A stretch of 64,000 nt of DNA from Thermus sp. 2.9. Its GTDB lineage: Bacteria > Deinococcota > Deinococci > Deinococcales > Thermaceae. The stretch is taken from assembly GCF_000794385.1 (NCBI RefSeq), contig NZ_JTJB01000034.1, positions 1 through 64,000 on the forward strand, read 5' to 3'. The position numbers and the translations under genes are program-made. Shown here one piece after another: positions 12,625 through 17,112 of the stretch (position 1 is its first letter; each line of letters opens with the position of its first letter). A model generated the notes under the pieces. That model was not told where the DNA came from, searched no databases, and saw nothing but the letters and a program-made list of their open reading frames with translations.

Positions 12625-12822
12625 GTGAAGGTGGTTTTGCGCCTGCCCGAGCGCAAGGAGGTGGAGGTCCGGGGAAACCGGCCCCTGAAGGAAGTTCTTT
12701 TGGAACTTGGCCTCAACCCGGAGACGGTGGTGGCCATCCGCGAAGAGGAGCTCCTCACCCTGGACCAGGTGGTGGGGGACGAGGAGCGAATAGAGGTGCT
12801 CTCTGCCATCTCGGGAGGCTAG
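12625..12822 (+). CDS. ttuB: TtuB, ubiquitin-like sulfur carrier for tRNA 2-thiolation
   Basis: 65 residues with a beta-grasp pattern and the diagnostic C-terminal Gly-Gly (SAISGG), the site that is adenylated and thiocarboxylated. Nearly the whole sequence (for example VVLRLPERKEVEV and ELGLNPETVVA) agrees with the T. thermophilus protein as I know it. TtuB donates sulfur to 5-methyluridine 54 of tRNA and can also be conjugated to lysines. GTG start 4 nt after acuC; ttuA follows at once. Confidence 0.95.
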   Translation: MKVVLRLPERKEVEVRGNRPLKEVLLELGLNPETVVAIREEELLTLDQVVGDEERIEVLSAISGG

Positions 12823-12823
12823 G

Positions 12824-13789
12824 GTGGTCTGCAAGGTTTGCGGGGAAAAGGCCCAGGTGGAGGTGCGCTCCCGGGGGTTTGCCCTTTGCAAGGCGCACTA
12901 CCTGGACTGGTTCGTGAAGGAAACGGAAAAGGCCATCCGCCGCCACAAGATGCTTTCGCCGGGGGAGCGGGTCTTGGTGGCGGTTTCCGGGGGGAAGGAC
13001 TCCTTGGCCCTGTGGGATGTGCTGAGCCGCCTGGGCTACCAGGCGGTGGGGCTCCACATTGAGCTCGGCATCGGGGAGTATTCCCGGCGGAGCCTCGAGG
13101 TCACGGAGGCCTTCGCCCGGGAAAGGGGCCTCCCGCTTCTGGTGGTGGACCTCAAAGAGGCCTATGGCTTCGGGGTGCCGGAGCTTGCCCAGCTCTCCGG
13201 GCGGGTGGCCTGCTCCGCCTGCGGCCTTTCCAAGCGCTACATCCTGAACCAGGTGGCGGTGGAGGGAGGCTTCCGCGCCGTGGCCACGGGCCACAACCTG
13301 GACGACGAGGCGGCGGTCCTCTTCGGCAACCTCCTAAACCCCCAGGAGGACGCCCTGGTCCGCCAAGGGCCGGTCCTCCCGGAGAAGCCCGGCCTCGCCG
13401 CCCGGGTCAAGCCCTTCTACCGCTTTAGCGAGCGGGAGGTCCTCTCCTACACCCTCCTCCGGGGCATCCGCTACCTGCACGAGGAGTGCCCCAACGCCAA
13501 GGGGGCCAAAAGCCTCCTCTACAAGGAGGCCTTGAACCTGGTGGAGAAGGAGATGCCGGGGGCTAAGCTCCGCTTCCTCGAGGGCTTTCTAGAAAAGGTC
13601 CAACCTCGCCTTCAGGGGGAAGGGGAGGTGGCCCTGAGGGAGTGCCAGCGCTGCGGCTACCCCACCACGGGGGCGGTCTGCTCCTTCTGCCGCATGTGGG
13701 AGGCGGTCTACCGCAAGGCCAAGAAGCGGAGGCTCCTGCCCGAGGAGGCGGTCTTCCACCCCCACGCGGAGCCCACCCGTGCCGGTTGA
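12824..13789 (+). CDS. ttuA: TtuA, tRNA-5-methyluridine(54) 2-sulfurtransferase
   Basis: 321 residues. An N-terminal zinc motif (CKVCGEK and LCKAHY), the PP-loop VAVSGGKDSLA near residue 52, Fe-S cysteines in VACSACGLSK (about residue 130) and EECPNAKG (about residue 222), and a C-terminal zinc motif (CQRCGYPTTGAVCSFC) match the TtuA/Ncs6 family. It adenylates U54 and replaces its 2-oxygen with sulfur from TtuB, which stabilises tRNA at high temperature. Starts one base after the ttuB stop. Confidence 0.96.
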   Translation: MVCKVCGEKAQVEVRSRGFALCKAHYLDWFVKETEKAIRRHKMLSPGERVLVAVSGGKDSLALWDVLSRLGYQAVGLHIELGIGEYSRRSLEVTEAFARERGLPLLVVDLKEAYGFGVPELAQLSGRVACSACGLSKRYILNQVAVEGGFRAVATGHNLDDEAAVLFGNLLNPQEDALVRQGPVLPEKPGLAARVKPFYRFSEREVLSYTLLRGIRYLHEECPNAKGAKSLLYKEALNLVEKEMPGAKLRFLEGFLEKVQPRLQGEGEVALRECQRCGYPTTGAVCSFCRMWEAVYRKAKKRRLLPEEAVFHPHAEPTRAG

Positions 13790-15622: not shown

Positions 15623-16264
15623 GTGGAGGATCCCTTCCAGGGCTTGGCGGAGGCCTACGAGGCTTGGTACGAGACCCCTTTGGGGGCCTACGCCATTGCC
15701 GAGGAGGAGCGGGCGCTATGGGCCTTTCTTCCCCCTGGGGAAAGTCTCCTGGAGGTGGGGGCGGGGACGGGCTACTGGCTCAGGCGCCTTCCCTACCCCA
15801 GGAAGGTGGGGGTGGAGCCCTCGGCGGCCATGCGCCGGGTGGGGATGCGGCGGACCGCCGGGGTGGAGTGGGTGGCCGCCCATGGGGAGGCCTTGCCCTT
15901 TCCCGACGGGGCCTTTGACGTGGTCCTCCTCTTCACCACCCTGGAGTTCGTGGTGGACGTAGAGCGGGCCCTGGCCGAGGCCAGGCGGGTCCTGAGGCGG
16001 GGCGGGGCCCTGGTGGTGGGGATCCTCGAGGCCCTCTCCCCTTGGGCTGCCTTCTACCGCCGCCTGGGGGAAAGGGGGGTCCGCCCCTGGACCCACGCCC
16101 GCTTCCTCGCCCGGGAGGACCTGTTGGCCCTCCTGGGCCCCCCCGAGGCGGAAGGGGGGGTGGTCCACCTGGCCCCGGAGGCCGAACCCCCTTACGCGGA
16201 GGCGGACCGGGCAGGGCGGCGGGCAGGGAACCGCCCTGCCCTATACTTGGGGAGGTGGCGGTGA
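15623..16264 (+). CDS. Class I SAM-dependent methyltransferase
   Basis: 213 residues, GTG start 4 nt after the glucosidase. Motif I is LLEVGAGTGYWL (about residue 40), motif II VGVEPSAAM, and FPDGAFDVVLLFTTLEFV is motif IV; RVLRRGGALVVGI is the post-motif strand. That is the Methyltransf_11 (UbiE/BioC-like) fold. Substrate unknown. Its stop overlaps the start of a second methyltransferase gene. Confidence 0.85.
   Translation: MEDPFQGLAEAYEAWYETPLGAYAIAEEERALWAFLPPGESLLEVGAGTGYWLRRLPYPRKVGVEPSAAMRRVGMRRTAGVEWVAAHGEALPFPDGAFDVVLLFTTLEFVVDVERALAEARRVLRRGGALVVGILEALSPWAAFYRRLGERGVRPWTHARFLAREDLLALLGPPEAEGGVVHLAPEAEPPYAEADRAGRRAGNRPALYLGRWR
16209..16247 (+). repeat. Inverted repeat with adjoining TATACT inside methyltransferase 3' end
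   Basis: GGGCAGGGCGG (16209-16219) and CCGCCCTGCCC (16231-16241) pair perfectly over 11 bp. TATACT follows immediately at 16242-16247, 13 nt before the next GTG. The order hairpin then TATACT repeats what is seen before acuB, so an internal promoter or operator is plausible. Confidence 0.5.
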
Positions 16265-17004
16265 AGGCCCTCTTTGCCCTCTACCCCCTTCTCCAGGGGG
16301 ACTACCGCGCGGTGGAGAAGGCCCTGCAGGCCTTAGAGGGAAGCGGGGTGGACCACCGGGTCTTCCCCACCCATACGGAGCTTTCCGGGGAGGAGGACAA
16401 GGTTTTCGCGGCCCTGCGGGAGGCCTTCCGGAGGGCGGCGGAGGAGGGGGCTGTGGTCTTGTGGGCCCTCCTCACCAACGCCTGCGAGGCCCGGGACCCC
16501 TTCCGCCAGGAGGAGCGGCTTCGCCGCTTTCCCCCTTTGGCCATCGCCCAAAAGGCCCTGGAGGGCATGGAGGCCAAAAGCGCCCTGGACATCGGCACCG
16601 GCACCGGGGTCTTCGCCGAGGCCTTCGCCCGGCTTGGGCTTTTCGCCGTGGGCCTGGACCCGCGGGCGGACCGCCTGGAGGTGGCCCGGGCCAAGGTGAA
16701 GGGGGCGCGGTTCGTGGAGGGAAGGGCGGAAAGCCTTCCCTTTCCCGAGGGGAGCTTTGACCTGGCCTTCTTCGGCCTCTCCCTCCACCACCTAGACCCC
16801 CTTCCCGCCCTAAGGGAGGCGGCGAGGGTGGCCCGGCGGGTGGCGGTGCTGGAGTGGCCCCACCGGGAGGAGGCGGTGGGCCCCCCCTTGGCCCGGCGCC
16901 TCTCCCCGGAGGCCCTGGAGGACCTCTTCCGCCGGGCTTTGGGAAGCCCGCCCCGCCTCCACCTGGAGGCGGATTGGGTGTTGGCCTTGTGGGAAAAGGA
17001 CTAA
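16261..17004 (+). CDS. YkoF-like domain fused to a SAM methyltransferase
   Basis: 247 residues from a GTG overlapping the upstream stop. Residues 1-80 (MKALFALYPLLQGDYRAVEKAL, VFPTHTELSGEEDKVFAALREAF, ALLTNACEA) resemble the YkoF/thiamine-binding (MTH1187-like) ferredoxin fold, known from thiamine/HMP-binding proteins. Residues 95-240 are a class I methyltransferase: motif I ALDIGTGTGVFAEAFA, then AVGLDPRADRL, AESLPFPEGSFDLAFFGLSLHHL. The fusion suggests a methylation step sensed or steered by a small heteroaromatic ligand, an inference only. It is coupled to another methyltransferase upstream. Confidence 0.75.
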   Translation: MKALFALYPLLQGDYRAVEKALQALEGSGVDHRVFPTHTELSGEEDKVFAALREAFRRAAEEGAVVLWALLTNACEARDPFRQEERLRRFPPLAIAQKALEGMEAKSALDIGTGTGVFAEAFARLGLFAVGLDPRADRLEVARAKVKGARFVEGRAESLPFPEGSFDLAFFGLSLHHLDPLPALREAARVARRVAVLEWPHREEAVGPPLARRLSPEALEDLFRRALGSPPRLHLEADWVLALWEKD

Positions 17005-17025: not shown

Positions 17026-17112
17026 GGTGCCGGGGGCGGGACTCGAACCCGCACGCCCTCATCGGGCAACAGATTTTGAGTCTGCCGCGTCTACCTGTTC
17101 CGCCACCCCGGC
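17025..17112 (-). tRNA. tRNA-Leu (anticodon CAA)
   Basis: Minus-strand cloverleaf with acceptor GCCGGGG pairing CCCCGGC, discriminator A and encoded CCA. The anticodon arm ends CAGA-CTCAAAA-TCTG, giving CAA; a long class II variable arm (GCCCGATGAGGGC) and T arm GCGGG-TTCGAGT-CCCGC are clear. 88 nt with CCA. Its 5' end lies inside the annotated lnt coding region. Confidence 0.95.

Follow-up and report, generated by a model that had tools for sequence, protein, structure and literature searches.

The Fusion Gene and Its Surroundings

The locus lies in a stretch of 64,000 nucleotides from Thermus sp. 2.9 (the window, to which all coordinates below refer), and its features are as follows:

15623..16264, forward strand: stand-alone methyltransferase, orthologue of TT1324 (PDB 2gs9) by phmmer, proposed partner of the fusion protein
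16209-16219/16231-16241, forward strand: 11-bp inverted repeat, clear in the window, judged not conserved
16242-16247, forward strand: TATACT, resembling a −10 element, separated by 7 nt from the start at 16255 and located inside the upstream open reading frame
16255..17004, forward strand: fusion gene joining a YkoF-like domain to a class I SAM methyltransferase in an open frame of 249 aa, with orthologues 73-90% identical
16261..16488, forward strand: YkoF/MTH1187-like βαββαβ domain, residues 3-78 of the 249-aa reading, from Pfam, the AlphaFold2 model, and structural matches
16489..16566, forward strand: linker, residues 79-104, with conserved DPFR and RF.P motifs
16567..17001, forward strand: residues 105-249, forming a class I SAM-dependent methyltransferase domain, from Methyltransf_11, structural matches, and the SAM motif
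17028..17112, reverse strand: tRNA gene bounding the locus, from an Rfam tRNA match (a tRNA-Leu CAA stands at the equivalent place in relatives according to ARAGORN)

The start used earlier, 16261, gives an open frame at 16261-17004 on the forward strand (247 aa). Because an ATG is found two codons upstream of this position in 21 of the 22 Thermus orthologues (one codon upstream in L020), and the window itself has a GTG there, the gene is probably better read from 16255. The TGA stop of the upstream gene, at 16262-16264, overlaps the fusion gene by 10 nt when read from 16255 and by 4 nt when read from 16261.

The N-terminal 90 residues match Ykof (PF07615; E 1.5e-6, 29 bits) above the Pfam gathering cutoff of 21, and Thiamine_BP (PF01910; E 2.6e-6, 27.7 bits) above the cutoff of 24.9, with residues 3-64 being the stretch that passes the cutoffs for both families; when the whole fusion protein is searched, the PF01910 match becomes marginal (25.0 bits against 24.9). 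The PF07615 cutoff is reached in 20 of the 22 Thermus genomes that carry the fusion. In a phmmer search of solved structures, the first match of this domain is Bacillus subtilis YkoF (1s99/1sbr, E 1.5e-6; PF07615), with which it shares an F-[AS]-L-Y-P start and the βαββαβ fold. However, B. subtilis YkoF is a tandem of two such domains with no enzyme attached, whereas the Thermus protein has one YkoF domain, the only PF07615 match in its genome, fused to a methyltransferase.

Downstream of this domain, linker residues D81, P82, F83, R84, R88, R91, F92, and P94 are invariant among 21 Thermus sequences, residues 109-193 match Methyltransf_11 (E 1e-19), and the SAM motif LD.GTGTG is invariant among the Thermus orthologues. 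From its sequence and modeled structure, the enzyme half is a class I SAM methyltransferase, with a Rossmann-like core and a GxGxG SAM motif, and is predicted to bind SAM and transfer methyl groups.

The TATACT element, to which the earlier note had drawn attention, is present and is kept in all 22 of 22 orthologues. Its conservation fixes two Leu codons of the upstream frame as CTA/TTA and TTG/TTA, and these are uncommon choices (CTA plus TTA account for ~6%, and TTG plus TTA for ~10%, of Leu codons there). In Deinococcus-Thermus, leaderless genes are marked by TANNNT at ~12 bp upstream (PMC3160421), and the TATACT sequence is consistent with a leaderless promoter of its own for the fusion gene; as the relatives are close, its conservation is suggestive. 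The hairpin that had been described alongside it exists in the window as an inverted repeat, but most of the relatives checked fold no better than shuffled sequences, and as a conserved signal the hairpin is ruled out on these folding energies.

Predicted Structure of the N-Terminal Domain

The AlphaFold2 model of the whole protein shows a βαββαβ domain followed by a class I methyltransferase, with Z scores of 16-18 to many class I methyltransferases. The shallow alignments behind the models (21 and 24 rows) are a weak point. The top Foldseek match of the whole model is an Aquifex aeolicus methyltransferase (3dh0), to which the sequence alignment extends past the core into a W....E..GPP stretch; 3dh0 has no YkoF domain and is named only as a SAM-dependent methyltransferase. 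As methyltransferases filled the list of structural matches, so that the YkoF part did not show, the domain was modeled alone, from an alignment that included four YkoF repeats. The resulting model (pLDDT 84) again has the βαββαβ arrangement, and its top seven structural matches are all MTH1187/DUF77/TM0486 proteins (VIA-align Z 10.9-12.8), while unrelated ferredoxin-like folds follow at Z 9.6 and below, and YkoF 1sbr lies at 8.0.

The domain is thus predicted to have a ferredoxin-like βαββαβ fold with its best structural match in the MTH1187/YkoF superfamily. This comparison of the modeled N-terminal region with YkoF and MTH1187 had been proposed in the earlier note, which had read the first ~80 residues as a YkoF/MTH1187 fold followed by a complete class I methyltransferase in one covalent protein. 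Both halves of that reading hold: the N-terminal assignment through the two Pfam models, the phmmer match to YkoF, and the domain-only model, the methyltransferase through Methyltransf_11 and its structural matches, and the covalent fusion through Pfam, phmmer, and the modeled structure together. The possibility that the N-terminal domain is a mere methyltransferase lid is ruled out by the domain-only model and its structural matches.

While the closest structures to the Thermus domain are the single-domain MTH1187/DUF77/TM0486 proteins (PF01910; 1lxn, 1vk8, 2ibo, 1yqh), the domain falls outside their clade. In the domain tree, the DUF77 rows form a clade of their own (100/100), and the Thermus domain is placed on the YkoF side (82/93), with weak deep support within the YkoF family. 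Relatives of the YkoF type that are encoded beside a methyltransferase in other genera (see below) share an N-[AVS]-C ending with the Thermus domain (SNACP vs TNACE). The loop before the third strand, in contrast, reads M-[SG]-[ST] in most relatives, paired and DUF77 proteins alike, and T-H-[TS] in all Thermus orthologues.

The Upstream Methyltransferase and Gene Pairing Outside Thermus

The methyltransferase encoded upstream matches 2gs9 over its full length (phmmer E 2.7e-105, residues 3-213 on 1-211), with TM1293 (PDB 1vlm) being the next solved relative (E 3.3e-23). TT1324 was deposited as a hypothetical protein, and its gene is tandem and overlapping with the fusion in Thermus. It is the upstream gene that is its orthologue, whereas the fused methyltransferase domain belongs outside the TT1324 family: in the methyltransferase tree, the fused domains form their own group across an 84/91 branch from the TT1324-like enzymes, while partner enzymes from outside Thermus group with Thermus TT1324, with the deep forks weakly supported. 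In PADLOC, nothing came up beyond a match to mads_2 of a generic methyltransferase kind. We note that in L010 and L016, the TT1324-like gene before the fusion appears frameshifted, possibly through sequencing error.

Outside Thermus, stand-alone YkoF-type genes mostly abut a methyltransferase gene resembling the one upstream of the Thermus fusion. A profile built from the TT1324 proteins of Thermus found a TT1324-family neighbor at 10 of the 14 loci with a single-domain YkoF-type gene, in 8 of 12 genera, frequently overlapping, and at 0 of about 15 DUF77-type loci (12 genera). This difference corresponds to a Fisher p of 5e-5 by locus and 0.0013 by genus, where the counts are small, we sorted the loci into classes from sequence and tree, and the DUF77 counts were entered by hand. 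Within the sequence searched around these loci, which comprised 246 kb of wide flanks as well as short flanks (just 1.5 kb at some loci), every match scoring 50 bits or more is the YkoF-adjacent gene itself. Four YkoF-type loci (G323, G366, G460, G461) gave no TT1324-family neighbor, G460 and G461 on short flanks only. The paired YkoF-like proteins are ~80-110 aa long, encoded as a separate gene beside the TT1324-like gene, and the pairing spans at least three phyla other than that of Thermus.

Such gene adjacency shows a functional linkage rather than a complex. The upstream methyltransferase, which the earlier note mentioned in passing, appears to be the conserved partner. The ancestral unit was likely a TT1324-like methyltransferase with a YkoF-like partner, and Thermus would have attached a second methyltransferase to the partner.

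The other neighbors of the paired loci (radical SAM, Nitro_FeMo-Co, MinD-type ATPase, flagellar genes, and others) show no recurrence beyond the pair. Two loci are worth describing individually. At L114:174-743 (G442), an extra methyltransferase with a weak match to the fused domain lies directly upstream of the TT1324-like and YkoF genes, in a three-gene arrangement. At L106:6081-10063 (G337), the YkoF pair lies among Nitro_FeMo-Co and ferredoxin-MinD ATPase genes, and a glycine-rich MPGGDRTGPLG protein found at this pair also occurs near the unpaired YkoF gene of G323 (L079).

Distribution, Selection, and Losses

Of the 27 Thermus genomes, 22 carry the full fusion, which the remaining genera of the family lack; across the phylum it is confined to Thermus, and ordinary tandem YkoF genes occur in two genomes. 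In both of these, an ABC ATPase gene adjoins the tandem, as does TenA in the one that was scanned. The wider PF07615 searches outside Thermus returned YkoF genes as stand-alone frames only, and 684 genome searches (many of them repeats, and a sample rather than proof of absence) brought up no further fusion of a YkoF domain with a methyltransferase. A scan of genome contigs gave Thermus loci only, plasmid records gave methyltransferase cores with no YkoF-domain match, and, in the literature searched, no title or abstract among the papers naming both YkoF and a methyltransferase dealt with such a fusion.

The two halves of the fusion are under similar purifying selection (dN/dS 0.24 in the YkoF part, 0.22 in the core of the methyltransferase). 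Since the Thermus orthologues are close relatives, they do not count as so many independent events.

Five Thermus genomes lack an intact fusion, one of which (G043) is only 65% complete, while the other four are well assembled. G025 and G031 have an empty site between an alpha-amylase-family gene and tRNA-Leu, G040 retains ~60 codons of the TT1324-like methyltransferase, and G032 carries a frameshifted chimera of the two methyltransferases from which the YkoF part is absent. In these four genomes, the TT1324 gene and the fusion are missing or disrupted together, which could stem from single deletions spanning neighboring genes, and the locus is dispensable in Thermus. The G032 chimera (L028, contig C15) takes its N-terminal half from the TT1324-like gene and its C-terminal half from the fusion.

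This dispensability, together with the restriction to Thermus among the sampled genomes, is what might be expected if a YkoF gene had simply become joined to an unrelated methyltransferase by chance, with no functional meaning to the join. We consider such an origin very improbable, as the full-length frame is kept in 22 species-level genomes with invariant linker positions and the dN/dS of the YkoF part given above, and as the YkoF relatives are tied to methyltransferases elsewhere as well.

Proposed Role of the YkoF-like Domain

Taking these observations together, the reading we favor, and consider on balance probable, is that the gene product, a domain of the YkoF/MTH1187 superfamily joined to a class I SAM methyltransferase, works with the upstream TT1324-type methyltransferase, the YkoF-like part being the partner subunit of the latter enzyme. 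We infer the partner role because elsewhere the YkoF-like part is a separate protein encoded beside a TT1324-like gene. In a physical complex of this kind, the YkoF-like subunit would pair through its ferredoxin-like sheet, and its small-ligand pocket may deliver a substrate to, or sense an effector for, the methyltransferase; the Thermus partner, having gained a second methyltransferase domain, would give rise to a two-methyltransferase assembly on a YkoF core.

An alternative role would be that of a bare oligomerization module, which would have lost ligand binding and would hold the methyltransferases together. In favor of this role, domains of the YkoF superfamily form wider oligomers through their sheets. 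The two repeats of YkoF likewise associate through their sheets (PMC3779223), and the otherwise conserved loop is altered in Thermus. However, polar residues T39, H40, E42, T74, N75, and C77 are invariant among 21 Thermus sequences, and the paired proteins of other genera retain the N and C. Such conservation fits a pocket no less well than an interface alone, and we regard a purely structural role as rather unlikely.

The earlier note had pointed to a thiamine-like or pyrimidine compound as substrate or effector. On this view, the YkoF domain would bind thiamine, HMP, or a related pyrimidine, which the fused enzyme could methylate or by which it could be controlled. YkoF 1sbr is listed as a thiamin complex, TM0486 binds thiamin according to a work cited in PMC6393860, and the Thermus domain passes both PF07615 and PF01910. 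Yet T-H-[TS] replaces the M-[SG]-[ST] loop of most relatives, and no thiamine gene was found among the scanned neighbors of the fusion or, by eye and with Pfam, beside the paired loci elsewhere. Furthermore, ThiC is found both in genomes that carry the fusion and in genomes that lack it: all but one of the 27 Thermus genomes have ThiC (26 in total; the one without it is 65% complete), including all four well-assembled genomes without an intact fusion. ThiC therefore does not track the fusion, and a thiamine link by co-occurrence is ruled out. Thiamine is a possible but unsupported ligand, and methylation of, or control by, thiamine or a related pyrimidine appears doubtful. Among candidate substrates, a heterocycle of the thiamine-like or aminopyrimidine kind would receive a similarly low weighting from us. 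The T. thermophilus thiamine operon is described as being without a thi element (PMC3084264). In G039 (C1:1328365-1329623), ThiC appears split into two pieces.

Extending the partner-subunit reading beyond Thermus, we tentatively propose, at slightly less than even confidence, an undescribed but widespread two-protein system, in which a TT1324-type enzyme, together with a YkoF-like subunit that binds a ligand, would act on a small heterocyclic metabolite, and which would have become a double methyltransferase by fusion in Thermus. YkoF/MTH1187 proteins have so far been known as stand-alone proteins that bind thiamin or have no assigned function. The pairing and the Thermus fusion tie a distinct YkoF branch to one methyltransferase family, which provides a function to look for in both; TT1324, with a solved structure (2gs9) and no assigned function, now has a candidate partner, and the ligand could be sought in the fusion, a single protein from a thermophile.

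Other Features of the Window

Elsewhere in the window, positions 12625-13789 contain a 65-aa open reading frame with no Pfam match and, after it, a PP-loop protein showing a LIM match of the TtuA type; the two are possibly a TtuB-TtuA tRNA thiolation pair.
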